DNA from: a virus
Strand: one strand, 5' to 3'
IMG/VR virus record: IMGVR_UViG_3300044846_005309
Span: 1-64,000 of that record
Length of the DNA: 64,000 nt
The position numbers and the translations under genes are program-made. The notes beneath the pieces were generated by a model. That model was not told the origin of the DNA. It searched no databases and saw only the letters and a list, made by a program, of their open reading frames with translations. Below are positions 1 through 45,785 of this stretch, piece by piece (the stretch's first letter is position 1; each line of letters starts with the position of its first letter).

Positions 1-3000
1 TTGATTGCCTTGATTGCCTTGTGCGCCTTGATAGCCTGAATAACCAGATCTACCAGAATAACCACTAATACCAGAATACCCACTTATACCGCTATAACCG
101 GATATACCAGAATAACCACTAATGCCTGAATAGCCTGAATAGCCAGATACACCTTGTACGCCTGCAGCGCCTTGGTTGCCTTGGTTGCCTTGCGCACCAG
201 CTGCTCCTTGGTTGCCTTGCGCACCAGCTGCTCCTTGGTTGCCTTGATTGCCCTGCGCGCCCGCACCTCCTTGGTTACCTTGATTGCCTTGAGCTCCTTG
301 ATAGCCGGAATATCCAGATACACCTTGAACACCAGTAGCGCCTTGGTTGCCTTGGTTGCCTTGGGCGCCAGCGGCGCCTTGGTTACCTTGATTGCCTTGA
401 TTACCTTGAGCGCCTGCTGCTCCCTGATTACCTTGGTTGCCTTGAGCGCCTTGATAGCCGGAATAACCGGATCTACCAGAGTACCCACTTATACCGCTAT
501 AACCGCTTATACCACTATATCCTGAAATACCAGAGTAGCCACTAATACCCGAATAACCTGAATAACCGGACACGCCTTGTACGCCTGTTGCGCCTTGATT
601 ACCTTGGTTGCCTTGGTTGCCTTGTACTCCTTGATAGCCTGAATATCCAGATACGCCTTGTACACCGGTAGCACCTTGGTTGCCTTGGTTACCTTGAGCT
701 CCTTGATAACCGGAATAACCGGACACCCCTTGTACACCAGTAGCACCTTGGTTGCCTTGATTACCTTGGTTGCCTTGATTGCCTTGAGCGCCAGCTGCTC
801 CTTGATTACCTTGATACCCTGAATAACCTGAAATGCCTGAATATCCTGAGTAACCTGAAGCAGCTGCTCCGCCAGCTTGACCAGAATATCCTGAAATGCC
901 TGAATATCCTGAATATCCTGAGGCAGCGGCACCTCCGGCTTGACCAGAATACCCTGAATAACCGGATGTACCTTGTACGCCCTGCACCCCGGTTATTCCT
1001 TGATAGCCAGAATAACCTGATACACCTTGCACACCGGTAGCACCTTGATTGCCTTGATTGCCTTGATTGCCTATTGCTCCTTGATTACCTTGATTGCCTT
1101 GATTACCTTGATTACCTTGGTTACCTTGAGCTCCTTGATAACCGGAATAACCAGATCTACCAGAATATCCGCTTATACCACTATATCCTGAAATACCAGA
1201 GTAACCACTAATACCCGAATAACCTGAATAGCCAGATACACCTTGTGCTCCAGCGGCGCCTTGGTTGCCTTGGTTGCCTTGGTTGCCTTGAGCGCCTGCT
1301 GCTCCTTGGTTGCCCTGGTTACCCTGATTGCCTTGGTTACCTTGAGCGCCTGTACCAGTTGCCCCTTGAATGCCTTGATAACCTGAATAACCCGAATAGC
1401 CAGATACGCCTTGTACTCCGGTAGCGCCTTGGTTGCCTTGGTTGCCTTGGTTGCCTTGAGCGCCTGCTGCTCCTTGGTTGCCCTGGTTACCCTGATTGCC
1501 TTGGGCGCCTTGGTAGCCTGAATAGCCGGACACTCCTTGCGCGCCTGCTGCTCCTTGGTTGCCTTGATTGCCTTGCGCGCCCGCCGCGCCTTGATTGCCT
1601 TGATTGCCTTGTGCTCCTTGATAGCCTGAATAGCCGGATACGCCTTGCGCGCCTGCTGCGCCTTGATTACCTTGATTACCTTGATTACCTTGAGCGCCTG
1701 CTGCTCCTTGATTACCTTGATTACCTTGGTTGCCTTGATAGCCGGAATAACCGGATCTACCAGAGTACCCACTTATACCGCTATATCCTGAAATACCGGA
1801 GTAACCGCTAATACCGGAGTAACCACTATACCCACTAATACCTGAATAACCAGAATACCCAGATACGCCTTGTACACCGGTAGCCCCTTGAATGCCTTGA
1901 TAGCCGGAATACCCAGATACACCTTGTACCCCAGTAGCACCTTGGTTGCCTTGATTACCCTGGTTGCCTTGGGCCCCAGCGGCGCCTTGATTGCCTTGAT
2001 TACCCTGATTGCCTTGATTGCCTTGGGCTCCTTGATATCCTGAATAACCGGATACCCCTTGTACCCCAGTAGCGCCTTGATTGCCTTGGTTGCCTTGGGC
2101 ACCGGCTGCGCCTTGGTTGCCTTGGTTGCCTTGGTTACCTTGGGCCCCGGCGGCGCCTTGATTACCTTGGTTGCCTTGATTACCCTGAGCGCCTTGATAA
2201 CCAGAATAGCCAGATACACCCTGTACCCCAGTAGCACCTTGGTTGCCTTGGTTACCCTGTGCCCCAGCAGCGCCTTGGTTACCTTGATTACCTTGATTGC
2301 CTTGCTCACCTTGATAGCCAGAATAACCTGATCTACCGGAATAACCACTAATGCCACTATAACCGGAATAACCACTTACACCAGAATAACCAGAATAGCC
2401 GCTTATACCGGAATACCCTGAATAACCGGACGCACCTTGTGCCCCGGCCGCTCCTTGGTTGCCTTGGGCGCCGGCTGCGCCTTGGTTGCCTTGGTTGCCT
2501 TGTGCCCCTGCAGCGCCTTGGTTGCCTTGGTTGCCTTGGGCTCCTTGATAGCCTGAATAGCCAGATACACCTTGTACCCCGGTTGCACCTTGATTGCCTT
2601 GATTGCCTTGATTGCCTTGATTGCCTTGATTGCCTTGTGCACCGGCTGCGCCTTGATTGCCTTGGTTGCCTTGGGCACCGGCTGCGCCTTGGTTGCCTTG
2701 GTTACCTTGGTTGCCTGAATAACCTGAATAACCAGATACACCTTGAGCGCCAGCTGCTCCTTGATTGCCTTGGGCGCCAGTTGCTCCTTGATTGCCTTGA
2801 TTACCTTGCGCGCCTGCAGCGCCTTGGTTGCCTTGGTTGCCTTGGGCACCAGCTGCTCCTTGGTTGCCTTGGTTACCTTGATTGCCTTGGGCACCTTGGT
2901 TACCTGAATAACCTGAATAACCAGACACACCTTGTGCCCCGGCCGCTCCTTGGTTGCCTTGGGCGCCAGTTGCTCCTTGATTGCCTTGATTACCTTGCGC

Positions 3001-3420
3001 GCCTGCAGCGCCTTGATTGCCTTGATTACCTTGCGCGCCTGCAGCGCCTTGGTTACCTTGATTACCTTGCGCGCCTGCAGCGCCTTGGTTACCTTGAGCG
3101 CCTTGGTTGCCTGAATAACCTGAATAACCAGATACACCTTGAGCGCCAGCTACTCCTTGGTTACCTTGAGCGCCTTGATTGCCTGAATAGCCTGAATAAC
3201 CGCTTATACCACCTTCTCCGGCATAACCAGAATAACCGGAATAACCGCTTTCTCCAGAATAGCCGGAATACCCACTAGTGCCTCCTTCACCGGCATAACC
3301 ACTGTAACCAGAATAGCCAGACTCTCCGCTGTATCCGCTATACCCACTAGTGCCTCCTTCACCGGCATAACCAGAATAACCGGAATAACCAGAAATACCT
3401 GAGTAACCAGACGCGCCGGT
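1..3420 (-). repeat. Collagen-like Gly-X-Y coding repeats
   Basis: Nine-base-multiple coding repeats read on the minus strand as Gly-X-Y triplets. Two flavours alternate. One is Gly-Tyr-Ser (sometimes Gly-Ile-Ser or Gly-Arg-Ser) in runs of about 4-12 triplets. The other is rich in Gly-Asn-Gln, Gly-Ala-Gln and Gly-Ala-Ala. Proline is almost absent, unlike animal collagen. Gly, Asn and Gln codons are mixed, so the repeat appears to be kept at protein level rather than being a fresh simple repeat. The strict periodicity keeps several other frames on both strands open, and these are not genes. Confidence 0.9.
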
Positions 3421-3990: not shown

Positions 3991-4063
3991 TTAAGCGGAT
4001 ATTCCGGTTATTCCGCTTGTACCACTTTCTCCAGAATAGCCAGAATAACCGGAATATCCGCTT
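3977..4063. repeat. 36-bp duplication with a 20-bp inverted segment that creates a stop
   Basis: Two 16-bp direct copies of CCGCTTGTACCACTTT lie at 3977-3992 and 4013-4028. The 20 bases between them (3993-4012) are the exact reverse complement of 4044-4063. The unit is 36 bp, so the reading frame is kept, but the join creates a TAA on the minus strand at 3993-3991. The inverted stretch codes Gly-Ile-Thr-Gly-Ile-Ser where Gly-Tyr-Ser repeats are expected, which is what reversing GYSGYS codons gives. Confidence 0.85.
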
Positions 4064-4668
4064 ATACCACCTTCTCCGGCATAACCAGAATAACCGGAAT
4101 AACCGCTTTCTCCAGAATAGCCAGAATAACCACTTGCGCCGCCTTCTCCGGCATAACCAGAATAACCGGAATAACCGCTTTCTCCAGAATAGCCAGAATA
4201 ACCACTTGCGCCGCCTTCTCCGGCATAACCAGAATAACCGGAATAACCGCTTTCTCCAGAATAGCCGGAATAACCGCTTTCACCGGAATAGCCAGAATAA
4301 CCACTCGAACCACCTTCTCCCGTATACCCACTGTAGCCAGAATAGCCAGAAACTGAAACTATTGTTCCATTATTTAAAAAATTTCCAGTAATATTAAGGT
4401 CGCCTTGTATATCAAGTTTATACTCCGGTGTTTTACCTATACCGACATTATCTCCTGAAAGTATAATACTATTATTAGTTGTAAAACCTCTATTTCCGTA
4501 TATATCTGAAGTAGGGATGTATTTATACCCAGAACTCCCGCTAGGAACTCCTAAATTAGGCTCTGCGTTAGGTAAGCCTAAAAATTGATAACGCTCAGGG
4601 TCCGCACTTAACGGCGGCACTACCGGTGTTCTATCACTAATAAGCTGAGGTTTATTATAAGTAGCCAT
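3991..4668 (-). CDS. Collagen-like tail fibre protein, N-terminal portion ending at in-frame stop
   Basis: 225 residues before the stop. The first 120 or so residues are non-repetitive and include a motif typical of phage fibre proteins (NVGIGKTPEYKLDIQGDLNI, about residues 80-100). The rest is Gly-Tyr-Ser collagen-like repeat broken by Glu-Gly-Gly spacers. The start ATG overlaps the stop of the upstream gene (TAATG), which implies translational coupling. The frame continues past the stop for at least 1,330 codons of similar repeats, so the natural product is probably a fibre of more than 1,500 residues. Host binding is inferred from the fibre-like N-terminus and from neighbouring fibre genes, not shown. 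Confidence 0.7.
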   Translation of the reverse strand: MATYNKPQLISDRTPVVPPLSADPERYQFLGLPNAEPNLGVPSGSSGYKYIPTSDIYGNRGFTTNNSIILSGDNVGIGKTPEYKLDIQGDLNITGNFLNNGTIVSVSGYSGYSGYTGEGGSSGYSGYSGESGYSGYSGESGYSGYSGYAGEGGASGYSGYSGESGYSGYSGYAGEGGASGYSGYSGESGYSGYSGYAGEGGISGYSGYSGYSGESGTSGITGISA

Positions 4669-5015
4669 TATTGGGTGTTAACAGCTTCTAGAACACTTAT
4701 AGTAAAATTTACAGAACTATTTGCGTCAGCTGATATTATAAGTTGATCGGCAGTTCCTAATACTAATTTTCCTACTGCAATATTAACTGCATCCTTAGCG
4801 GGTATAGTAAAATTTTTTACTAGTTCATATAAAGAATTTGGCGTACCATTTGCAGAAACTGAAACAGTAATTACCTGGTTAGTTGCAGATAAATTAGTAG
4901 CTACTGCGGATAAAATAATACCTGCTCGACTAGAAGGGGCAGTATATACTACTGTAGGGGTTGTAGTTACTGCTATGCTAACTCTTCTAAAGAAATTTAA
5001 TGGTATCGAGGCCAT
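4668..5015 (-). CDS. Small virion structural protein, probable fibre accessory
   Basis: 115 residues, beta-rich and Ser/Thr/Ala/Val-rich. No family is recognised with certainty. It resembles small fibre-associated or decoration proteins found between structural genes of marine T4-like phages. The last base of its stop codon is the first base of the next ATG, so it is coupled to the collagen fibre. A late-promoter-like ACTAAATA ends six bases before its ATG and there is no ribosome-binding site. A structural role is inferred from position only. Confidence 0.6.
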   Translation of the reverse strand: MASIPLNFFRRVSIAVTTTPTVVYTAPSSRAGIILSAVATNLSATNQVITVSVSANGTPNSLYELVKNFTIPAKDAVNIAVGKLVLGTADQLIISADANSSVNFTISVLEAVNTQ

Positions 5016-5020
5016 ACTAT

Positions 5021-5028
5021 TATTTAGT
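5021..5028 (-). promoter_or_regulatory. Late-promoter-like octamer ACTAAATA
   Basis: Matches the T4 late consensus TATAAATA at six of eight positions. The last A is six bases before the A of the ATG at 5015, so T4-like initiation would start at the start codon itself. Confidence 0.5.
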
Positions 5029-6567
5029 TTACTCTAATGCTAACGTCAACGGGGTAACTAAAGATAATATTGAACGATTAAACGTTTCTCCTTCAATAGT
5101 TCCAGTTGATTGTACTACTTTAAATCCAGCACCTACTTTAAAATCTCCTTCTTGGTTAGTGCTTGTCCAATAAACAGCCCCGCCTCCAGATGCCACTGCT
5201 TCTAAATCCGGATTACCTACACCGCCTAAAGCAGGAACAGCTGTAACTAATTCTACCCCAGAGCCGACGTATTCCATAGTATGCGAGCTTGATGTAATTG
5301 TACTTCTTATGTAAAAACTTACTGTAGCTCCAGCAGATAACCCAGCAGTTAACCTATTAGTTGCTGCTATAGAATATTTGTAGTTAATTACATCGGTTGA
5401 AGTTACACTATCAATAGTGTAAAGAGTGTCGTCCCCAGTAATTTTAAATACTAATCCTAAATAAGGACGGTCAACAGGTAGACTATAAGTTGGATATGTT
5501 CTCGGTGTAATAGCACTAACCGAGATTGTATCGGTACCGTCGGTAGTTACAGCTAAAGTACCCGTTAATACAGGCGCTGAAGAATAGCCTACTGCAACTA
5601 GTCCTGAAAGTCCAAAAGAACAATTGGATGTATTAATTGAACAAGTACCGCCATTGTCAGCTATTACTCCTTCAGTGCAGCAAATTGTAAAGGTTGAAAC
5701 TAATTGAGCGTATCCATCGTTTGTAATATGTATACCTTTACCGCCCTGGTTAAATTGAGTAAAAGAGTCAGTAACAAAACTTCTCAAGTAACCCGCAGCA
5801 AGGCTACCATCTACTCTTATTCCGCAACCTGCGCTTAAACCCCCTGTACCGGAAGTAATTGAACTACAACCTTGTATATACGGACTTGTAACTATAAATG
5901 GCTTAGTTGTAGGGGCGGTAATTTCATTACCAGCAGTATTGAACGCAATTGCAGTTAAAGCTGCATTAGTTAAATTAGGAAAAGCGGCTGCAGCAGACGG
6001 CTCAAGATGATTTCTAAATGTAAAACCCCACACATATACGCTATTACTACACCAAAGTATATCATACTGAGGGTTAGCTGGTAGTATATTTGTTCTTCTT
6101 AAATTGTCCCCAATTAAAGATACATTGGAATTAAGAAAAACCGGGTTTTGCTCGGTATAGTCCCCGGACGAAACAAAAATAGTATAACGAGTAGGGGCAT
6201 TTGCAGCGGCTATTGCAGCAGCCTTTTTTATAGTGAGTAAAGATTCAGAAATAGTACTTCCTGAATTGCTATCATTACCGTGTTTGGAGACAAATAACCG
6301 ATTTGTTTCAAGAGTAGCGCTAGGAACGACTAATACTAAATCGCTATCACTCGTACCGTTTTTATACCAGTATTTGTACGGGGTACCGGCTATTATAAGA
6401 CGTACTTCTAAAGATTGAAAACGGACGCCCTCCGGTATAGCAGCATTTGCTGCAGCAATTGCTGCAGCTTCATTTGCCCCTTCATAAGGACCAGACCAAG
6501 TATCAACCGGTACAGCATTTACTGGCTGTATTCCATATGGTATTTCTAGTCCGGGTGTTAGTGGCAT
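5029..6567 (-). CDS. Tail fibre/spike protein with pectin-lyase-like beta-helix
   Basis: 512 residues. Around residues 90-165 it has the signature of right-handed beta-helix phage proteins: LFVSKHGNDSNSGST, then an Ala-rich helix, then TIFVSSGDYTEQNP and VSLIGDNLRRTNI. The rest is Ser/Thr/Gly-rich with repeated short strands, as expected for a trimeric fibre or spike. Proteins of this type recur in the fibre clusters of cyanophage-like T4 relatives. Enzymatic cleavage of polysaccharide is possible but no catalytic residues can be assigned. It lies one base after the 6569-8164 gene on the same strand. Confidence 0.7.
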   Translation of the reverse strand: MPLTPGLEIPYGIQPVNAVPVDTWSGPYEGANEAAAIAAANAAIPEGVRFQSLEVRLIIAGTPYKYWYKNGTSDSDLVLVVPSATLETNRLFVSKHGNDSNSGSTISESLLTIKKAAAIAAANAPTRYTIFVSSGDYTEQNPVFLNSNVSLIGDNLRRTNILPANPQYDILWCSNSVYVWGFTFRNHLEPSAAAAFPNLTNAALTAIAFNTAGNEITAPTTKPFIVTSPYIQGCSSITSGTGGLSAGCGIRVDGSLAAGYLRSFVTDSFTQFNQGGKGIHITNDGYAQLVSTFTICCTEGVIADNGGTCSINTSNCSFGLSGLVAVGYSSAPVLTGTLAVTTDGTDTISVSAITPRTYPTYSLPVDRPYLGLVFKITGDDTLYTIDSVTSTDVINYKYSIAATNRLTAGLSAGATVSFYIRSTITSSSHTMEYVGSGVELVTAVPALGGVGNPDLEAVASGGGAVYWTSTNQEGDFKVGAGFKVVQSTGTIEGETFNRSILSLVTPLTLALE

Positions 6568-6568
6568 A

Positions 6569-8164
6569 TTATGAGCGGGTTACTTGGTGTCTATGAGAGA
6601 ATGAATAAGGTAAACTATTAGTCATTGCATAAACTTTATAAGTTATAGGGGTACCTAAATAATCATTTACACCAAAAGATGATAGTAAATAGTTTGAAGT
6701 AACATTAAGATTTAAAGCATCTAAATCTAAAACTTGAGTAAGCGTGTTACTGGTAGGCATAGCAACAGTAAATATTTTATAAGTAGTGCCTGTATTTAAT
6801 GTAAAAGGATTGCTCAAGCTATTTGTAAAGTCGCGAGATCCTAAATTTCTTACATCAGCTGAAGTAGCTGGTAAAGCAGAAATAGGACCATAGAATATAA
6901 GACTATTAAAGTTTACTGTAGTTGTAGTATTTGCGTTACTAGCAAGATAATCTTGGTACGTATCTGTAACTAGTGCTCTATATGCAATGCTTGTTGCGGC
7001 ACTTAAAGTAGTATTGTCGTGTCTGTAGCTGCTTATTGTAGCGGACCCACCATAACCAGTAAGAGGTATAGAAGTTAAAGAGGTCCAAGCTGACCAAGAA
7101 CCTGTAAATGCGCGGAATTCTAAAGTATAGTTAGAAAGAGGTACTAACGGGCTATTGCGAGTTATGCCGCTACTAATATTTGAACCAACGTTACCCTTTT
7201 CTCTGTTTGTATTAGTTTCTGGGGAATAAAGAGCAGAAAGAGCAACAACCGGTAAACTAATAGATGGAGCTACATACGGGGTAGGCGTTATATCAACATA
7301 ACCTGTTCCAGCTCCTCCTGCACTATCTGTAACTATATAGCGGTAATTAAAAAGAGCTGTGTTAAAATTAGTGTCAGTGTAAACATGCACTGCAGAAGGT
7401 ATAAGACCGGCTGAAAGAGTCGTCCAGCTACCAGTATTATTTCTTCTCCAAGATAGTGTGCCGCTTACAAGAGACGGCACAGGGAAAGAACTTGGGTTTA
7501 CTGTATAGCTTGTAAAAATTTCATTATTAATAGCAGTTTGGTTAAACTGTATAGTGCTTGTAGAGGAAAGAGAGACTATAGGGCTTAAAGGCTCATTAGA
7601 CGCTAAAAGTATTACTTCACTAGGAGTCTTTCCTATAGCAGGTATTATGTCTCCGTTTATATAACGACCAAAAGTCTTGCCAGTGCTTAAAACTACTACT
7701 ATATCGTCTGTAAAAACGTCCGCAGCGCCAGAATAACCTGAAAACCCCGAATAACCAGAATACCCTGACGACCCGCCACTACCACTATCTCCTTTTGCGC
7801 CGGAATAACCAGAATAACCAGAATAACCACTAAAACCGCTATATCCACTATAACCACTAATTCCGCTATAGCCACTATAACCAGAGCCAGCAATAGTACC
7901 AGGGATACCAGAATACCCAGAATATCCTGAAGCACCGTCTGTCCCGCGAAAGCCACTGAACCCCGATCTTCCGGAATATCCGCTAAAACCGCTATCTCCG
8001 CTAAAACCACTTATACCGCTAAAACCACTTACACCACTAAAACCAGAATAACCAGAATAACCAGAAGCTGAAGCAACGCCTGGTTGTCCAGAGTATCCTG
8101 AATACCCCGAAGAGTTATCCAGGCCGGTTATCATCGAAGTATGGACTCTGTTTAGATTAGGCAT
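6569..8164 (-). CDS. Collagen-like fibre protein with GYSG repeats and beta-rich C-terminus
   Basis: 531 residues. Residues 18-145 are Gly-Tyr-Ser / Gly-Phe-Ser collagen-like repeats, including a GSGGSSG hinge. The remaining 380 or so residues are a non-repetitive beta-rich region with Ser/Thr-rich strands (for example SGTLSWRRNNTGSWTTLSAG) that could be Ig-like. The repeat coding resembles that at 1-4340, so the two genes could exchange repeats by recombination. It is two bases downstream of the 71-residue gene and is probably part of one fibre operon. No enzymatic motif is seen. Confidence 0.7.
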   Translation of the reverse strand: MPNLNRVHTSMITGLDNSSGYSGYSGQPGVASASGYSGYSGFSGVSGFSGISGFSGDSGFSGYSGRSGFSGFRGTDGASGYSGYSGIPGTIAGSGYSGYSGISGYSGYSGFSGYSGYSGYSGAKGDSGSGGSSGYSGYSGFSGYSGAADVFTDDIVVVLSTGKTFGRYINGDIIPAIGKTPSEVILLASNEPLSPIVSLSSTSTIQFNQTAINNEIFTSYTVNPSSFPVPSLVSGTLSWRRNNTGSWTTLSAGLIPSAVHVYTDTNFNTALFNYRYIVTDSAGGAGTGYVDITPTPYVAPSISLPVVALSALYSPETNTNREKGNVGSNISSGITRNSPLVPLSNYTLEFRAFTGSWSAWTSLTSIPLTGYGGSATISSYRHDNTTLSAATSIAYRALVTDTYQDYLASNANTTTTVNFNSLIFYGPISALPATSADVRNLGSRDFTNSLSNPFTLNTGTTYKIFTVAMPTSNTLTQVLDLDALNLNVTSNYLLSSFGVNDYLGTPITYKVYAMTNSLPYSFSHRHQVTRS

Positions 8165-38449: not shown

Positions 38450-39106
38450 TTATAAAATAAAGTAGGGAGAATTAAAGTTATAACTCTTGATGTATTTTAT
38501 TTTTGCGTCTCGTGTGTAAAGATTATTATATTTTATATTAAAAAGCATTTTTTCTTCAAGTGGCTCGCTATTTTCAAACTCTGTTGAAGAAAAGTCTCCA
38601 GTAATCCAGTTTACGAATAACGTACATGAATTACGAACTAAATAGAGATTCTTAGTACGTGTATTAAACGCCCAAAACGCAAATGTACCTTCTAGTTTTT
38701 CGGGACCATTTTCTATACCAAACACATCTAACATACGAGGAATAATGCAGCTATCTGTTTTTCCTGCAAAATCTTCTTCAGGATAGTGTTGTTTAGTTAA
38801 TTTTTCAAAATTACTAATAATACCGTTATGAGCTACAGCCCAGTCTTTATAGAAAAAAGGGTGATTATTGTCTTCTTCAAAACCTTTAGTTTCTACAGTA
38901 GGTCCTCGCGAATGGTAAAGATAATATATTTTAGTGTAGTTATTTGAACTAAACGGCGTTTTAAAATCCCCTAAAACTTTTTTATAGGCCTGCACCCCTG
39001 TATCATCTAGTAACATAGAACCAGAGCTATAAAAGCCTCTATTAAGGTTATCTTTATAGAGTTTATACGCTCTATCTTTATCAGTTGAGCCTGCAATACC
39101 GCACAT
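38450..39106 (-). CDS. Class II glutamine amidotransferase
   Basis: 218 residues. The Cys2 nucleophile follows the start Met (MCGIAGS). Other N-terminal nucleophile (Ntn) features are RGPTVETKGFEE, AVAHNGIISNFEKL with the oxyanion-hole Asn-Gly, and the KTDSCIIPRMLDVF and LEGTFAFWAFN segments. It releases ammonia from glutamine. There is no synthetase domain on the same protein, but queC starts just upstream with a gap of three bases, so the two probably act together. In crenarchaea and some phages these two domains are fused as Gat-QueC. Confidence 0.85.
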   Translation of the reverse strand: MCGIAGSTDKDRAYKLYKDNLNRGFYSSGSMLLDDTGVQAYKKVLGDFKTPFSSNNYTKIYYLYHSRGPTVETKGFEEDNNHPFFYKDWAVAHNGIISNFEKLTKQHYPEEDFAGKTDSCIIPRMLDVFGIENGPEKLEGTFAFWAFNTRTKNLYLVRNSCTLFVNWITGDFSSTEFENSEPLEEKMLFNIKYNNLYTRDAKIKYIKSYNFNSPYFIL

Positions 39107-39109
39107 AAC

Positions 39110-39820
39110 TTAGTATGGCTTACAATCAAATTTACTCCACGGTATTTCTTTTGCGTATTTAATTGGGTCTATAGTTTTATTATCTATAAAAGCTTTAATA
39201 CGCGCTGCGCATGATACGCATTCCCCGCAGGCTACTTCTTTACCTTCATAACAAGTATGGGTATGTGCAAAATTAACATTCAAATCAATACCTTCTTTTA
39301 CAACTCGATCTTTAGACCACGTCATGAATGGAGCATTTACTTTAATTGTATTTTTACGGTTAAGATTATATACATCATTGACTTTGTTTAGGAACAAAGA
39401 AGTACAGTCCCAATAACCAGAAAAGTCATCCGTTTGCACAGCCCCGTAAAATAAATCATTAGCTCCAATACTTTCAGCCCAGCCCGCAGCGGTTGTTAAA
39501 AGCAAAAGATTTCTAAAAGGTACATAACTCAAAGGCTGAGCGTTACCGATATCTTCTCGAGCCTTAGGAATCTTAAGATCAGTATTAGTAAGAGCGGACA
39601 TTTTGGATATCTCTCTAAAGAAATCCATATTGATGAGTTTATGTTCAGTCACGCCTACGTTTAGAGCTTGTGTTTTTGCACAATCAACTTCTCGGATAAT
39701 CCGTTGCCCGTAATTAAATGTAATAGCATACACTTCATTGTATGCAAGTCGTTTTGTAACATGGTGTAAAAGAATAGTACTATCCATGCCACCTGAAAGG
39801 ATGACGAGCGCTTTAGACAT
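39110..39820 (-). CDS. queC: 7-cyano-7-deazaguanine synthase QueC
   Basis: 236 residues, the family length. PP-loop SGGMDSTILLHHV (9-21), FNYGQRIIREVDCA, the substrate-side PFRNLLLLTTAAGWAESIGA, and the Zn site with CYEGKEVACGECVSCAARIKAF. It converts 7-carboxy-7-deazaguanine to preQ0 using ATP and ammonia. QueE and QueD, the two preceding steps, are encoded at 44.5-45.8 kb. The adjacent amidotransferase may supply ammonia or make an amidine derivative. Confidence 0.94.
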   Translation of the reverse strand: MSKALVILSGGMDSTILLHHVTKRLAYNEVYAITFNYGQRIIREVDCAKTQALNVGVTEHKLINMDFFREISKMSALTNTDLKIPKAREDIGNAQPLSYVPFRNLLLLTTAAGWAESIGANDLFYGAVQTDDFSGYWDCTSLFLNKVNDVYNLNRKNTIKVNAPFMTWSKDRVVKEGIDLNVNFAHTHTCYEGKEVACGECVSCAARIKAFIDNKTIDPIKYAKEIPWSKFDCKPY

Positions 39821-39862
39821 ATGTTTATAATAAAATATAACCTTAGAAATTCAAATGTTTTT

Positions 39863-39870
39863 GATAAATA
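39863..39870 (+). promoter_or_regulatory. Late-promoter-like octamer GATAAATA
   Basis: Seven of eight match to TATAAATA, nine bases before the ATG at 39879. It lies between the queC gene and the poly-glycine gene. Confidence 0.55.
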
Positions 39871-39878
39871 ATAGTATT

Positions 39879-40703
39879 ATGTCAAAGTTTGCAAATACAT
39901 TTCTTAAATCCCTTAACGAAGAAGCTGAAAAACTTCATGGCGGACAAAAAAATATCGATGTAGCAGCTCCTAAAGGCAAAATTACAGGTGCAGATTTTGC
40001 GGCTCTTCGCAAAAAGAAAGGTCTAAAGAAAGAAGGCGGTGGCGGCGGTGGCGGTGGTGGTGGCGGCGGAGGCGGGGGTGGCGGTGGTGGTGGAGGTGGA
40101 GGTGGTGGCTCATGGGAAGAAAGTGGTCGTATGAAACGAGGATTAAAGAAAGAAGAAGCAGAAGGCAATGCATTCAGCAAAGCCGTACAAGACGCAAAAG
40201 CGGCTGGCAAAAAACCAGGAGATAAAATTAAAGTAGGGGATAAGGACGTAACTCTTCGCGAAAAAAATAAAATGGCGGATAAAAAGAAAAAAGCTATGAA
40301 GGAGAATTATGAAATGGAAGCGGCGCCAGCTCCTTCAGGTGGGGAAATGTCTGATGAAGAAGCGTATAAGCGTTCGCTAGACAAAGGCACTAACCCTAGA
40401 GACTTTGATGTAGCAGACAATCCTCAGCTTAAAGTGGACTCCTCAGGGGTTGACGCGGCGCGTAATTGGATTTCTAAATTAGAAGAAATGGCTGACTTTG
40501 TAAACGGTACTGGACCGGAAAGCCTTAACTCTCAAATCAATCAACTTGAAATTAAAAACTCAATACCGTTTCGCGGAGTTGTTCGTCGGGAAGAAAAACG
40601 TATTACTAAATTAGCAGAAAACCTCCGCGGTTTAGCAGAGGTCTTCAAATCAGTCGTAATTACTTCTGAAAAGAAAGTTAAAGACGCTTCTACCCCTCGT
40701 TAA
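39879..40703 (+). CDS. Poly-glycine protein, putative internal head protein
   Basis: 274 residues from the ATG at 39879, preferred to an ATG at 39855 because the promoter-like GATAAATA lies between them. The first 14 residues (SKFANTFLKSLNE) resemble the putative capsid-targeting segments of other genes, ending L-N-E. Then comes a run of 25 Gly (40035-40109) coded by mixed GGN codons, Lys-rich stretches, and a helical C-terminus of about 90 residues. The function is unknown; a late, packaged protein is inferred. The 3' end overlaps the convergent thyX. Confidence 0.6.
   Translation: MSKFANTFLKSLNEEAEKLHGGQKNIDVAAPKGKITGADFAALRKKKGLKKEGGGGGGGGGGGGGGGGGGGGGGGGGSWEESGRMKRGLKKEEAEGNAFSKAVQDAKAAGKKPGDKIKVGDKDVTLREKNKMADKKKKAMKENYEMEAAPAPSGGEMSDEEAYKRSLDKGTNPRDFDVADNPQLKVDSSGVDAARNWISKLEEMADFVNGTGPESLNSQINQLEIKNSIPFRGVVRREEKRITKLAENLRGLAEVFKSVVITSEKKVKDASTPR
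40035..40109 (+). repeat. Run of 25 glycine codons
   Basis: 75 bases encoding 25 consecutive Gly using GGC, GGT, GGA and one GGG. It is a sharp GC-rich island in an AT-rich genome. Mixed codons argue against recent triplet slippage. Confidence 0.9.
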
Positions 40704-41391
40704 CGTTTAATTCATTAATAGCTTTAAAGGTCTCAGGAAATAACCCTTCGAGGCCTTTTTTTATGTCTAGAGCTATTTCTCTATGCTCTTTTTGTGTGCC
40801 CTCCGCGCAACGAAGATCAAGATAGTGAATCCAGCTACGCAAAGTACCTGACATATAGATTCTTGTTTGGGTATTCAGAGGTAGTATGATTCTTGCACAT
40901 TCTTTTGCAATACCTTTTTCAATTAATGCATTATACGCAGCTAATGACGTTTCCTGCGCGACTTTAACAATTTCTTGAAGTTCAGGAGATAGTACAACAG
41001 GATCATCTCCTACCTGTCTGTTTGTTTTTCCTTGCATTCTCCACTCTGGCGCTTCAAGCCTTGTGGCTGTAGCATATCTCTGGCTAAACTCCTGAAACGT
41101 AAATGATCTATGGCGTAGAATTTGTGCAGCAATAGCTCTAGACGTCCAAATCTCAAAAGTACAACTTACATGCTCAAAGGGGCTCCAATGCTTATGCTTA
41201 ATAAGATAGCGAATAAGCTTATGACCGGTTTCGGTGTTCATCTGGTTAGCCGGATTACTTACCCGGGCTATATACACTATAAATTGCTCCGGAGTCATAT
41301 TGAAATGGCCGTTACCGGGGTGAGGGTTCCTGAAACCTTCAGGAACCATAGGGACAAACGGCTGAGTGATTGCGATTAATTTTGTTTGCAT
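40690..41391 (-). CDS. thyX: FAD-dependent thymidylate synthase ThyX
   Basis: 233 residues. The ThyX motif appears as RHRSFTFQEFSQR, preceded by HWSPFEHVSCTFEI and followed by the nucleotide-binding ILPLNTQTRIYMSGTLRSWI. It converts dUMP to dTMP with methylene-tetrahydrofolate and FAD. The dUTPase and ribonucleotide reductase in this window supply its substrate. The final 14 bases overlap the convergent poly-glycine gene, and the upstream primase gene overlaps it by 16 bases. Confidence 0.94.
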   Translation of the reverse strand: MQTKLIAITQPFVPMVPEGFRNPHPGNGHFNMTPEQFIVYIARVSNPANQMNTETGHKLIRYLIKHKHWSPFEHVSCTFEIWTSRAIAAQILRHRSFTFQEFSQRYATATRLEAPEWRMQGKTNRQVGDDPVVLSPELQEIVKVAQETSLAAYNALIEKGIAKECARIILPLNTQTRIYMSGTLRSWIHYLDLRCAEGTQKEHREIALDIKKGLEGLFPETFKAINELNVNEG

Positions 41392-42401
41392 TTGATTTGT
41401 GAAAATTTAATTAAACCTTTCATACCTGTATACGTATGCTTAACTATTATATTCCAATCTAGTTCATCTTGCTTGGTGTGCACGCATAAATCGTTAATAT
41501 CTTTAAACCTTTCGAGACCAGCTGGCCATAGAAAAACTTTTTCTCCTTTATCTAAAAGAGACTTAGTAACATCGTAAGAAGTGCTATCCACCCATTGATT
41601 ATCAGGTACATATACTAAAGTGTGCATAGGGAACAACGTTTGCAGACGCTCTACCTGGCCTTCAGTAGGGTTAATACCAGCCAAGGCTACACTATTGCGT
41701 AAAAACATGGCGTCAATAGGGCCTTCCTGTAAAAATATATACTCAATATCAGGTATAATCTTATCTATATTAAATATACCTTTATCTGAATTGGCTTTAG
41801 ATAAATACTTAGCTCTATCCTCGTCTACCTTATAAAGAGCGCGAGATTGATAAAATTCTATTTTAGCGCCTCCGTTGGGGCTGTAAAACGGAAACACGAC
41901 TCTATTCTTGTGCGTGTAATCTGTTAAACTTAACCACAAAGCTTTAGGACGATTAACAGCAGTATTGAGCCTTCTTTTGTTAATGAAATCTAAAGCGTCT
42001 TTGACTGTTACATTTGCGCTATAAAATGAAGTTTGATTATTATCAAATAAATTTATACTGTCATCGGGCAAACTCTTAGGGTTATATTTTTTGTATACAG
42101 AAGAGCGTTTAATAATATCTTCTATGGTGTCTGTCCGCAATTCGGACTCTGCAAGTATATCTTTTAAAGATAGACCTGTCTGTTCTTTTACAAAACTAAA
42201 CCCGTCAGTACTAGCCCCGCAATTATGACAGTAAAGATGATCTTCTTCAGGTATATAAAAAAACCGTCTCTTTTTGCCAGTGCTTTTTCCTTCATGGCAG
42301 TACGGACACTCCCCGTTATATGTACCGGTAGTTTTTTTGAATACTGGACGTTTGCAGTATTGAAAAAAAGTATTGATAACTAAATTTTGAGATATTTGCA
42401 C
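41376..42401 (-). CDS. gp61: DNA primase gp61
   Basis: 341 residues, like T4 gp61 (342). An N-terminal zinc ribbon (ECPYCHEG, then YCHNCGAST), then a helical linker, then the TOPRIM-type core with IFLQEGPIDAMFLRNSVALA and LVYVPDNQW. With gp41 it makes the RNA primers for lagging strand synthesis. The start is GTG at 42401; no ATG fits. The stop lies inside the thyX gene start (overlap of 16 bases). Confidence 0.88.
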   Translation of the reverse strand: MQISQNLVINTFFQYCKRPVFKKTTGTYNGECPYCHEGKSTGKKRRFFYIPEEDHLYCHNCGASTDGFSFVKEQTGLSLKDILAESELRTDTIEDIIKRSSVYKKYNPKSLPDDSINLFDNNQTSFYSANVTVKDALDFINKRRLNTAVNRPKALWLSLTDYTHKNRVVFPFYSPNGGAKIEFYQSRALYKVDEDRAKYLSKANSDKGIFNIDKIIPDIEYIFLQEGPIDAMFLRNSVALAGINPTEGQVERLQTLFPMHTLVYVPDNQWVDSTSYDVTKSLLDKGEKVFLWPAGLERFKDINDLCVHTKQDELDWNIIVKHTYTGMKGLIKFSQIKCKQN

Positions 42402-42402
42402 A

Positions 42403-42410
42403 GGTAAGTA
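42403..42410 (+). promoter_or_regulatory. Late-promoter-like octamer GGTAAGTA
   Basis: Eleven bases before the gp4 ATG at 42421, inside the short divergent gap to gp61. Confidence 0.4.
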
Positions 42411-42420
42411 ACTATAGTAT

Positions 42421-42879
42421 ATGGCCTACCCTAAAAATAACAAGTACTTTCAGGGGCTATACACCCCAATAAATAAAGACAAATACAAAGGCAGTACAAA
42501 TCCATCCTACAGGTCTTCATTAGAAAAAAACTTTTTCTTATATTTTGATAAAAATCCAAACGTAGTTGCTTGGGCCAGCGAATCAATAGTTATACCTTAT
42601 TACAACGATGTAGATAAAAAAGTGCACAAATATTATATAGATCTTATAGCTGCAATAAAGAACCCAAACGGGGAAGTACAAAAGTATTTAATTGAATTAA
42701 AACCATACGCACAGACCCAGCCACCTAAGCAGTCTAACAAAAAGAAAAGTAGTACAGTATTGTATGAAAACTTAATGTACCATCAAAATCAGTGCAAATG
42801 GAAAGCCGCGCACGAATACGCGGCTAAAAAAGGTATGAAATTTATTATACTAACCGAAAAATTTCTTACAATTCATTAG
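42421..42879 (+). CDS. gp4: Head completion nuclease gp4 (TnsA-like)
   Basis: 152 residues, the length of T4 gp4. Family motifs: PSYRSSLEKNFFLYFDKNPN, VAWASESIVIPYY, then YYIDLIAA and YLIELKPY, which supply the Glu, Asp and ELK catalytic residues of a TnsA-like endonuclease. It processes DNA ends or stabilises the filled head. A GGTAAGTA octamer lies upstream. The end overlaps the convergent gene by 14 bases. Confidence 0.88.
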   Translation: MAYPKNNKYFQGLYTPINKDKYKGSTNPSYRSSLEKNFFLYFDKNPNVVAWASESIVIPYYNDVDKKVHKYYIDLIAAIKNPNGEVQKYLIELKPYAQTQPPKQSNKKKSSTVLYENLMYHQNQCKWKAAHEYAAKKGMKFIILTEKFLTIH

Positions 42880-43408
42880 GATCAAATGTGCTGTCTAGAT
42901 CCTCTTCGTCATCATAATCGCGACGCATCATACGGTCATATTTGCTAGAAAGTTCATCTTTACCAAGCTTGTCAATATCAGACAAAGAAGGTTCTTCTGG
43001 CCCTAATTCTCCTGCGCCTGGCTCCATTGAGGTTTCTTGATCAACAATTGCTTTAACTACTGCTGGGTCAAGATTAAGAGGGGTCTCTTCAGTGCTATCG
43101 ATTGCAATTGCATCAATAATTTCATCGACTGACGCATCTGGGTTATGCGCGATATAGTCCGCGACAGCAAGACGGGTGCGTTCAGTAGCCGGATCTTTAC
43201 TTAAAGTGCTGATTTCTGGCTCAGCAGACGGCTTGGAAATAGGGCCTGTAGCTCCAAGTCCAGCTTTCTTGTCTCGTTGCATTTTATAAAACTTATAATG
43301 TGGTACTCCAGGATTTTCTACTTTCCACTTTTGGAATTCTGGATTAGGCTTACGAGCTTCCGGCATGAAGTTCTCGTTAATTTGATTCGCGAGTTTGTCA
43401 AATTTCAT
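42866..43408 (-). CDS. Acidic protein, putative internal head protein
   Basis: 180 residues. N-terminus KFDKLANQINENF contains I-N-E at 10-12, resembling a capsid-targeting segment. Next is EFQKWKVENPGVPHYKFYK, then a Pro/Ser-rich linker, a small helical domain around residues 78-110 (ADYIAHNPDASVDEIIDAI), and a very acidic tail. No known family. An AATAAGTA octamer is 15 bases before the ATG. Packaging in the head is inferred from the N-terminus only. Confidence 0.6.
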   Translation of the reverse strand: MKFDKLANQINENFMPEARKPNPEFQKWKVENPGVPHYKFYKMQRDKKAGLGATGPISKPSAEPEISTLSKDPATERTRLAVADYIAHNPDASVDEIIDAIAIDSTEETPLNLDPAVVKAIVDQETSMEPGAGELGPEEPSLSDIDKLGKDELSSKYDRMMRRDYDDEEDLDSTFDPNEL

Positions 43409-43422
43409 AATAAGTATGTTAT

Positions 43423-43430
43423 TACTTATT
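43423..43430 (-). promoter_or_regulatory. Late-promoter-like octamer AATAAGTA
   Basis: It lies 15 bases before the ATG at 43408, next to the end of the kinase-like gene (43429). Confidence 0.4.
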
Positions 43431-44139
43431 ACTTTTTGTGCAAGTTTTTATTGGATAATCCTAGTTGTTCTGAAAGAAAAGCTTGTTCATTAATGTCTTT
43501 AGTGATAAGGCTTTCGCTTTCCCCATAGAATTCACACTTCTCATTAATATACATTTTTAACATAGCTATTCTTTCTAGCGGATTACCGTAGATCGGTATA
43601 ATCGGCGGGCAGTCTTCATTATCGAAGAATTTAGAGCCGCCTTTTTGCCATGCTTTGTATAGCATTTCAAATAACACACCTATTTCCCCTCTATAAACCG
43701 GATCAATATCTCTATGCTCTTTAACAGTTAAAGTTACATCATTTTCTCTAACTAAAGGAAGATAAAATAAAACAGAATAAAATTTAAGCGCATGTCTAAC
43801 CGTAATTACGCATTTGTCAATAAAAGCTTCATCAATATCCGAAGTTTGTTTATCGTATAACCATAAAGAGTAAACCAAATTATCTAGAGGGGTACGGTCG
43901 AAAATCATTTTTTTAGATCCAACATTACCCATAGCTTCGTCAACAAGAAAATTAAGTATCGCTTCCTGAGACTCTTTAGTACCGTGCTTATTAATCGGTA
44001 GATTCTTTTCTTTAATTAAATCTCTATAAGTCTTAGTAGGGCGCTGCAACTGAGGCCATTGTAAAGTCATATCCTCAATAAGAGTACTCTTACCCACACA
44101 TTGTGTACCAATAACCCCTATCTTTTTTAATTTTGTCAT
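43429..44139 (-). CDS. P-loop NTPase (AAA_28/nucleotide kinase-like)
   Basis: 236 residues. N-terminal Walker A GTQCVGKSTLIED (11-23), then MIFDRTPLDNLVYSLWLYD with the kinase-like DRTPLDN, and a lid-like region with EHRDIDPVYRGEIG. It is similar to small phage kinase-like AAA_28 proteins, whose substrates (nucleotide, NMN or other) are not clear. The start overlaps the stop of the 75-residue gene (ATGA). It ends the minus operon that begins with queD. Confidence 0.7.
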   Translation of the reverse strand: MTKLKKIGVIGTQCVGKSTLIEDMTLQWPQLQRPTKTYRDLIKEKNLPINKHGTKESQEAILNFLVDEAMGNVGSKKMIFDRTPLDNLVYSLWLYDKQTSDIDEAFIDKCVITVRHALKFYSVLFYLPLVRENDVTLTVKEHRDIDPVYRGEIGVLFEMLYKAWQKGGSKFFDNEDCPPIIPIYGNPLERIAMLKMYINEKCEFYGESESLITKDINEQAFLSEQLGLSNKNLHKK

Positions 44140-44363
44140 TCTAACGACTTAGGCTTTTCCGTATCATTATCAACGTAGTCTAAATGGGCATTTTCAGGTG
44201 GAAAATACCCAATACCTTTTGTAAAAAGCTCGAACTGTTCGATAAGCTCGGTAAGATTTACATCTCCGCTTAAAACTATCTCAAGCTTGCGCGGTACACT
44301 ACTACAACTTTCTAAAGTAGGGGATTGCTCAACTTCGTATATAAATTTAATTACGGTTTTCAT
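44136..44363 (-). CDS. Hypothetical protein (75 aa)
   Basis: 75 residues, with a beta-alpha-beta feel (TVIKFIYEVEQSPTLESC, then VLSGDVNLTELIEQFELF). Unknown family. The start follows the stop of the small membrane gene with no gap, and its stop overlaps the kinase start. It may be a small partner of the kinase-like protein. Confidence 0.55.
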   Translation of the reverse strand: MKTVIKFIYEVEQSPTLESCSSVPRKLEIVLSGDVNLTELIEQFELFTKGIGYFPPENAHLDYVDNDTEKPKSLE

Positions 44364-44522
44364 TTATATAATTTCTTCCGCTATACCAATAATTTCAGCC
44401 AAAATCAATAATAGCCCGCCAGCAACTATATTACCCCCTATAAAAGCCGCCCCTGCAATAATACGCAGTATACTTTTAATAATACTAAGCTTAAAATGCC
44501 ATTCTGGATTAGGTGCTTCCAT
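44364..44522 (-). CDS. Small membrane protein (52 aa)
   Basis: A 52-residue frame from the ATG at 44522 to a TAA directly before the next ATG (44363). It reads EAPNPEWHFKLSIIKSILR followed by a hydrophobic helix (IIAGAAFIGGNIVAGGLLLI) and ends EEII. Zero-base spacing to the next gene and four bases after the QueE stop make it a likely true gene. It resembles small one-helix proteins with a PEWHFK-type head found in other T4-like phages. A role in lysis or membrane binding is not shown. Confidence 0.65.
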   Translation of the reverse strand: MEAPNPEWHFKLSIIKSILRIIAGAAFIGGNIVAGGLLLILAEIIGIAEEII

Positions 44523-44526
44523 AATT

Positions 44527-45330
44527 TTATACCTTTAAGGCTTTGTCCCAGATTTGCAAATGCATACGATTGCTAAATTTGAAACAATACTTCTTGCATA
44601 TCTCAGCTACCACCGGACCGACTTTAAGTAGTTCCTCTCGAGAGCCGCACATAGGCATAATCCAGACTAACTCGCTAGGTACCGCAACATCAGGATTGTT
44701 TACGTACTTTTCTAGTACTTCAGTAAGATCAGATTCTTGCTTAGCAACAAATTTAAAGCACGCTCTCTTATCAACAAGATTACGAAGTACATCTGGTTTA
44801 AAACGCTTTTCTTCAGGGTCTCCGTTACTAGAGAGTTTAGGGGACGTGGTATAGGATACAACGCAACCTAGTTGATGCCACATTTCATCTGGCATGATAG
44901 TACCATTAGTTTCAAAGTCAATTTTAAGTACCGGCTCTTGAGGCTCTGCAGCCATAAAGTCGAATTCGTTTTCTAAGTTAAAAAAACCCCAGCGGTCTAT
45001 AATGAATCTAACAAACTCAATAAGATTCTTTTGTTGAATAAAAGGCTCTCCACCGGTAAGCTTGAGAATAGCGCCCTGCTTAAGCATCTCATGATAGTCA
45101 TGCTTTTCAAAAAGCTGGGCTATTTCTTCAAAAGTCATTCTGTTCTTTTTAGACCAGCTTACATAACTATCACAACCGAAAGGAGCATCCTCACTCTTAA
45201 ACCCAATACAAGTGAGGTTGCACATAGATAGTCTCATAAACACAGAAGGATAACCGATGTATCGGCCTTCCCCCTCGAGAGTATAAAAGACAAAATCGTC
45301 AGAAAGAAAAAGAGTTTTATCAGCGCTCAT
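44527..45330 (-). CDS. queE: 7-carboxy-7-deazaguanine synthase QueE
   Basis: 267 residues. Radical-SAM enzyme with FYTLEGEGRYIGYPSVFMRL, then a cluster motif of spaced Cys (MCNLTCIGF and FGCDSY) and KLTGGEPFIQQKNLIEF (the GGEP SAM motif), then IDFETNGT. It converts carboxytetrahydropterin to carboxy-deazaguanine. The third cluster Cys is 11 residues after the second rather than two. queD is two bases upstream and the small membrane gene is downstream. Confidence 0.9.
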   Translation of the reverse strand: MSADKTLFLSDDFVFYTLEGEGRYIGYPSVFMRLSMCNLTCIGFKSEDAPFGCDSYVSWSKKNRMTFEEIAQLFEKHDYHEMLKQGAILKLTGGEPFIQQKNLIEFVRFIIDRWGFFNLENEFDFMAAEPQEPVLKIDFETNGTIMPDEMWHQLGCVVSYTTSPKLSSNGDPEEKRFKPDVLRNLVDKRACFKFVAKQESDLTEVLEKYVNNPDVAVPSELVWIMPMCGSREELLKVGPVVAEICKKYCFKFSNRMHLQIWDKALKV

Positions 45331-45332
45331 AG

Positions 45333-45785
45333 TTAAATATTAAAGTACTTTTGATAAATTGCACTGTTTTGTTCGTGCTCCCAAACTTCTACTTTTTCAC
45401 ACCAGCAACGATTATCAGTCATATTTCTGACATAAGAATCAGCAAGATCGCAGCAAAGCTCAGCAAACTTCTCTATGCCTACCCCGCCATGAAGCACAAC
45501 TAGTTCAATCATTCCCTTACTCTCAAGTAGGTAAAAAGTTTCAAGATCAGGATCTTTACCCCATACTACGGTTTTATGATCAAATGTATTTTCAAGATCT
45601 CTCTTTAGTTCCTTTAGACCACCAAAATCAACTACCCAGTTGTTTTGATCTAGTTCATTGCATACAAACCAAAATTTAGCCTGTAGCCGATAACCGTGAA
45701 TATATTTGCAATGGCTTTTCGCATGAGGTTGGCGGAATGCACATGAACCTAGAGGAATTACTTTAGTGGAATAAAATTTGCCCAT
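45333..45785 (-). CDS. queD: 6-carboxy-5,6,7,8-tetrahydropterin synthase QueD
   Basis: 150 residues. Family features: the zinc and active-site region FRQPHAKSHCKYIHGYRL with the catalytic Cys and His, NNWVVDFGGLKELKRDLENT followed by FDHKTVV, and the C-terminal catalytic Glu in WCEKVEVWEH. The canonical H-G-H appears as H-G-Y, as I recall in other phage QueD proteins. It makes carboxytetrahydropterin from dihydroneopterin triphosphate, the step before QueE. FolE (the first step) was not found in the window and may come from the host. Confidence 0.88.
   Translation of the reverse strand: MGKFYSTKVIPLGSCAFRQPHAKSHCKYIHGYRLQAKFWFVCNELDQNNWVVDFGGLKELKRDLENTFDHKTVVWGKDPDLETFYLLESKGMIELVVLHGGVGIEKFAELCCDLADSYVRNMTDNRCWCEKVEVWEHEQNSAIYQKYFNI

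Follow-up and report, generated by a model that had tools for sequence, protein, structure and literature searches.

The queC-gat locus

The window analysed here, bases 1-64000 of the linear virus record IMGVR_UViG_3300044846_005309 (119,783 bp), carries queD, queE and queC, genes of 7-deazaguanine synthesis, and next to queC a gene for a glutamine amidotransferase, gat; the queC-gat pair is the subject of this work. Coordinates of genes outside the window continue its numbering (Table 1). The phage is uncultured and, judged by its major capsid protein, T4-like; the nearest named relatives of that protein stand at about 35%. Profile matches were obtained for all four genes where the first-pass annotation had placed them, and its observation that gat follows queC on the same strand was confirmed: the two are separate open reading frames (ORFs), queC lying upstream, and the gap is exactly 3 nt.

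The gat product matches GATase_6 (1.5e-11) and phrog_12378 (1.8e-10), and its AlphaFold2 model (predicted local distance difference test, pLDDT, 92) has the glutaminase domain of GlmS as its best PDB matches (1.5e-11). Cys2, Asn94, Gly95 and Asp118 are invariant in 35 relatives; they supply the nucleophile, the HNG oxyanion motif and the conserved aspartate, which together with the N-terminal nucleophile (Ntn) fold identify Gat as a class II glutamine amidotransferase. A genome-contig scan with a single degenerate pattern, and thus a weak negative, returned no cellular relatives of the split Gat.

The queC product matches PF06508 with 207 bits and TIGR00364 with 178 bits, above the equivalog cut-off of 150, and has the SGGxDS, VPxRN and zinc-cysteine motifs of a preQ0 synthase. 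Canonical QueC proteins carry the motifs YxQxHxxE and YPDC, the latter in a loop at the mouth of the pocket (PMC13329287). The protein of the window departs from both, having Ile in place of His in the first (YGQRIIRE) and Trp in place of Pro in the second (YWDC), while the essential tyrosines are kept. Nor does it have the motifs of the Gat-QueC clade, YPDN and YGxRA.

Distribution of the pair and classes of QueC

The arrangement is not a chance one. Of 60 loci with a QueC of the window's clade, 57 run beyond queC, and each of these has gat as the following gene, as do cultured phages from a number of other groups. Vibrio phages of the KVP40/nt-1 type have queC and gat with a 1-nt overlap, and their 202-aa Gat is listed as a "hypothetical protein" in about 50 records, likely because Pfam GATase_6 fails to detect the Gat of nt-1. 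In Vibrio phage 2.275.O and Pseudomonas phage pf16 the pair lies downstream of QueF. A search with dpdA as the query, independent of Gat, returned operons of the order queE-folE-dpdA-formyltransferase-kinase-queF-queC-gat-queD. The pair thus occurs with two types of transglycosylase, with and without QueF, and this conserved pairing supports the functional coupling of Gat to QueC that the first-pass annotation had assumed.

Some variants of the arrangement were seen. Contigs L082, L089, L111 and similar T4-like contigs have an opposite-strand gene between queC and gat; in L082, the one contig checked, no long plus-strand ORF is hidden in this interval. A glycosyltransferase and a DnaB helicase come after gat in L111. 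Achromobacter phage Motura (L332:2492-4378) has a short QueC with an AsnB-like protein and a TGT directly after it, which is possibly another, independent pairing of QueC with an amidotransferase.

A glutaminase of this fold could also have nothing to do with QueC and serve some other amidation, for instance in making amino sugars for the record's several glycosyltransferases, and the GlmS glutaminase domain is indeed the best match in sequence and fold, with a Glyco_tranf_2_5 gene nearby in the window and adjoining gat in L111. We consider this highly improbable, as Gat has no attached synthase or isomerase domain, the glycosyltransferase does not accompany it consistently, gat adjoins queC across lineages with differing transglycosylases and with or without QueF, and the paired QueC carries a motif of its own.

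That motif, Y[W/H]D, is present in every paired QueC, namely at 64 of 64 loci selected by Gat and at all 17 dpdA-selected loci with Gat, whereas the four dpdA-selected loci without Gat have YPDC. These two selections are the unbiased tests, since the patterns behind the window-clade loci contained YWD; a further 80 loci were chosen by the YPDC pattern and can show only that YPDC-type QueCs lack Gat, not the converse. Tryptophan or histidine occurs at this position in no readable lone QueC of an isolate (that of BSTP12 has YPDC in the alignment; that of Motura was unreadable by the automatic motif expression). The fused Gat-QueC proteins have YPDN (or FGDN). In the QueC tree the Gat-paired proteins form one clade (100/98), and the fused proteins form a separate one (100/100).

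Relation to fused Gat-QueC and the bases of related phages

The first-pass annotation regarded the pair as a two-gene version of Gat-QueC, and suggested an amidine (G+-type) base from it. The fusion of phage 9g, Vid5 and crenarchaea shares several features with it: a class II Gat and a QueC serve a DNA-base pathway, and FolE, QueD, QueE and DpdA are encoded in the same phage. In the fusion, however, Gat is N-terminal to QueC, whereas here queC precedes gat. With its reversed gene order, its QueC in a clade apart from the fused proteins and another active-site motif (YWDC against YPDN), the pair does not, on these comparisons, represent a split Gat-QueC.

The bases measured in related phages point the same way. 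Vibrio phage 6E35-1A, with the genes queD-folE-dpdA2-queF-queC-gat and a 1-nt overlap of the last two, contains dPreQ1 at 15% of dG by liquid chromatography/mass spectrometry (PMC12028318). Its gat is annotated as a conserved protein of unknown function, and the word "amidotransferase" is absent from the main text of that paper (PMC12028318). Phage nt-1, which has queC-gat and lacks QueF, contains per million nucleotides 232 dPreQ0, 72 dADG and 44 dG+ (PMC6884629). Phage 9g does combine a fused Gat-QueC with dG+ in its DNA (PMC6884629), as the first-pass annotation had stated. There, Gat-QueC and DpdA lead to dG+ at 9-18% of G. The measured products track QueF, not Gat.

A two-subunit archaeosine-type synthase, in which ammonia from Gat would convert preQ0 to G+ and the phage would carry dG+, therefore seems quite unlikely to us. 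The dG+ of phage 9g, made by the same activities in fused form, the trace of dG+ in nt-1 and the relation between the Gat profile and the fused Gat domain (hhalign 98.9%) speak for it. Against it stand not only the reversed order, separate clade and unlike motif but also the gene content of the record, which has a reductase-type QueF with an NADPH motif and a PurN-like formyltransferase close to the transglycosylase. Cultured phages with the split pair, moreover, hold dPreQ1 (6E35-1A, which like the record has QueF) or mainly dPreQ0, which in nt-1 exceeds dG+ fivefold, the authors crediting the dG+ to an ArcS homologue (PMC12028318, PMC6884629). The amidine base expected from the two-gene arrangement is thus not borne out, neither by the record nor by its cultured relatives.

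A different comparison is offered by the KVP40/nt-1/6E35-1A-type Vibrio phages (Schizotequatrovirus, Mylasvirus) and pf16, T4-like phages with preQ0 genes, often QueF, and queC followed by a class II Gat of about 200 aa (phrog_12378). These phages differ in having a DpdA2-type transglycosylase, and no formyltransferase was seen in the clusters read.

The remaining genes of the pathway

Table 1. Genes of the 7-deazaguanine pathway in the virus record
Gene	Position	Strand	Product and matches	Location
gat	38450-39106	-	stand-alone class II (Ntn) glutamine amidotransferase, 218 aa	window
queC	39110-39820	-	7-cyano-7-deazaguanine (preQ0) synthase, 236 aa, Gat-paired type, YWDC motif	window
queE	44527-45330	-	phrog_2076 QueE, 1.2e-40	window
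queD	45333-45785	-	6-carboxytetrahydropterin synthase, 150 aa; PF01242 (PTPS) 1.3e-17; phrog_2389 QueD 6.8e-36	window
dpdA	64953-65762	+	predicted DpdA-type transglycosylase	same record, outside window
formyltransferase	65985-66578	+	putative, PurN-like	same record, outside window
kinase	66568-67137	+	AAA kinase-like protein	same record, outside window
queF	67134-68060	+	QueF, predicted reductase type	same record, outside window
folE	75350-76078	+	FolE, 1.1e-47	same record, outside window

As dpdA, queF and folE are found in the remaining 56 kb, the route from GTP to a 7-deazaguanine in DNA is complete in the record. The first-pass annotation had rightly seen no transglycosylase inside the window, the nearest one beginning 953 bp beyond its end; the search of the rest of the genome for DpdA/TGT and FolE that it proposed returned both, so that the full genome does encode a transglycosylase and the DNA-modification route is supported by a complete gene set, more strongly than the window alone showed.

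The transglycosylase was first recognised by reading all ORFs; Pfam TGT (PF01702) has no match anywhere in the record, and a Pfam scan of the DpdA protein was also empty. The protein is 47-48% identical to the "DNA guanine transglycosylase" of Flavobacterium phage immuto, which tblastn confirmed, and about 40% identical to a protein of Campylobacter phage CP220. Its AlphaFold model (pLDDT 91) has only TGT structures as top Foldseek PDB matches, including the DNA preQ0 insertase DpdA (7ui4), and 34 relatives all share D53, D84, Q118 and D211. By homology, the modelled TGT-type barrel and the catalytic aspartates it is predicted to be a DpdA-type DNA guanine transglycosylase. Cui et al. (2023) reportedly distinguish a DpdA3 subfamily with CP220-type members.

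QueF has both of its domains, PF14819 (QueF_N) and PF14489, together with an NADPH motif (ESKSMKLY) and the region of the catalytic Cys and Asp (SNCKITKQPD). It is therefore expected to reduce preQ0 and not to act as an archaeal QueF-like amidinotransferase; its score against TIGR03138 is 214 bits, under the cut-off of 293. The putative formyltransferase matches Formyl_trans_N (1.6e-7) and has the NGH...D residues, with a score far below the PurN cut-off. The order dpdA, a small ORF, formyltransferase, kinase, queF is common to phage immuto and related contigs, and the immuto homologues are 41% (formyltransferase), 35% (kinase), 40% (QueF) and 57.5% (FolE) identical. Unlike the virus studied here, immuto has a lone QueC with the YPDC motif, and no Gat was found in it. 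The name DpdN is said to have been given by the same 2023 study to a dPreQ1 formyltransferase.

The formyltransferase might belong to another process, such as purine or folate metabolism, and the pathway might end at dPreQ1, as it does in 6E35-1A, a Vibrio phage with QueF and queC-gat in which this base was measured; the low PurN score agrees with this. We hold such an end point to be unlikely, as the gene follows dpdA and immediately precedes the kinase and queF in two divergent operon types, a position that argues for action on the base.

A probable glutamine-fed QueC in the proposed pathway

From the genes, protein families, folds and conserved pairing, which are seen directly, we can draw a pathway that we regard, as a whole, as probable. 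FolE, QueD and QueE would convert GTP to 7-carboxy-7-deazaguanine (CDG), which QueC, aided by the neighbouring Gat, would turn into preQ0. QueF would reduce preQ0 to preQ1, the PurN-like enzyme would probably formylate it, and the DpdA-type transglycosylase would exchange the base for guanine in phage DNA, which may protect it from host restriction. The end base is probably formyl-dPreQ1 (computed mass 323.12 Da), with dPreQ1 the next candidate; the presence of QueF and the formyltransferase favours such a preQ1-derived base over an amidine, which is unlikely.

QueC is an N-type ATP-pyrophosphatase with ammonia as its nitrogen donor (PMC13329287). That Gat feeds it would be the simplest reading, since Gat has a glutaminase fold, QueC uses ammonia and asparagine synthetase pairs the same two enzyme classes: Gat would hydrolyse glutamine and pass the ammonia to QueC, the pair forming a two-subunit counterpart of asparagine synthetase. 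In asparagine synthetase B, too, a class II glutaminase feeds ammonia to an N-type ATP-pyrophosphatase domain, though the two are fused and the substrate is different. Archaeal GMP synthetase has its N-type ATP-pyrophosphatase and its glutaminase as two subunits encoded by adjacent genes, in that case with a class I glutaminase and again another substrate. On balance we favour the view that queC-gat encodes a two-subunit, glutamine-dependent preQ0 synthetase, and that its QueC belongs to a third, hitherto unrecognised class (Y[W/H]D), next to the lone QueC (YPDC) and the fused Gat-QueC (YPDN), found in T4-like phages with various transglycosylases and end bases.

Several observations weigh against the proposed pathway and the role of Gat in it. 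Gat must be optional, and chemically it is not required, because lone phage QueCs suffice without it, those of CAjan and Rosebush reaching about 30% dPreQ0, and because Gat is missing from immuto-type phages, whose downstream genes are the same. The expected glutamine-binding Arg67 is replaced by Gln in 20 of the 35 split Gats, though not in the window's clade; the stretch after the first conserved His reads HSR (HSRGPT) in that clade and HVQAPT in the Gln-type Gats, including those of KVP40-type phages, which are 26% identical to the Gat of the window. As the paired QueCs form one clade, the link between Y[W/H]D and Gat goes back to a single ancient change, faithfully kept, and not to many independent events. 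Phage nt-1 does contain its trace of dG+, the hand-over of ammonia from Gat to QueC is our inference, and the formyltransferase assignment comes from 41% identity to a putative immuto gene and from background literature.

Other features of the record

The radical-SAM cysteines of QueE have the spacing CX3CX11C, not CX3CX2C, and this is kept across the QueE proteins of the clade (CNLTCIGFKSEDAPFGC and variants); one QueE of the immuto-type contig L271 has yet another spacing, CX3CX8C. An IMP dehydrogenase/GMP reductase family protein (91994-92950; PF00478, 3e-52) possibly contributes to the guanine nucleotide supply of the base pathway. A heme oxygenase family protein is encoded at 89047-89574 (PF01126, 1.9e-19), and the phage is not obviously a cyanophage. 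Between queC and thyX lies an ORF on the other strand (39855-40703) encoding more than 25 consecutive glycines in simple-repeat DNA. Positions 3991-8164 encode tail or structural proteins with many SGYSGYSG repeats, and long mechanical ORFs on neighbouring frames (1173-3278) are probably not genes.

Significance

No description of a recurrent two-gene glutaminase-QueC unit was found in the searchable literature, whose coverage was incomplete, so that this is no proof of novelty. Where Gat adjoins QueC, predictions of phage DNA modification from gene content infer dG+; here a widespread split pair goes with preQ0/preQ1 chemistry, and a simple sequence rule separates three classes of QueC. A function can also be proposed for a protein whose entries in about 50 sequenced phages now read "hypothetical". 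If our reading is true, this would be, to our knowledge, the first glutamine-fed QueC, and it would suggest that phages shed their dependence on free ammonium during the rapid modification of their genomes.

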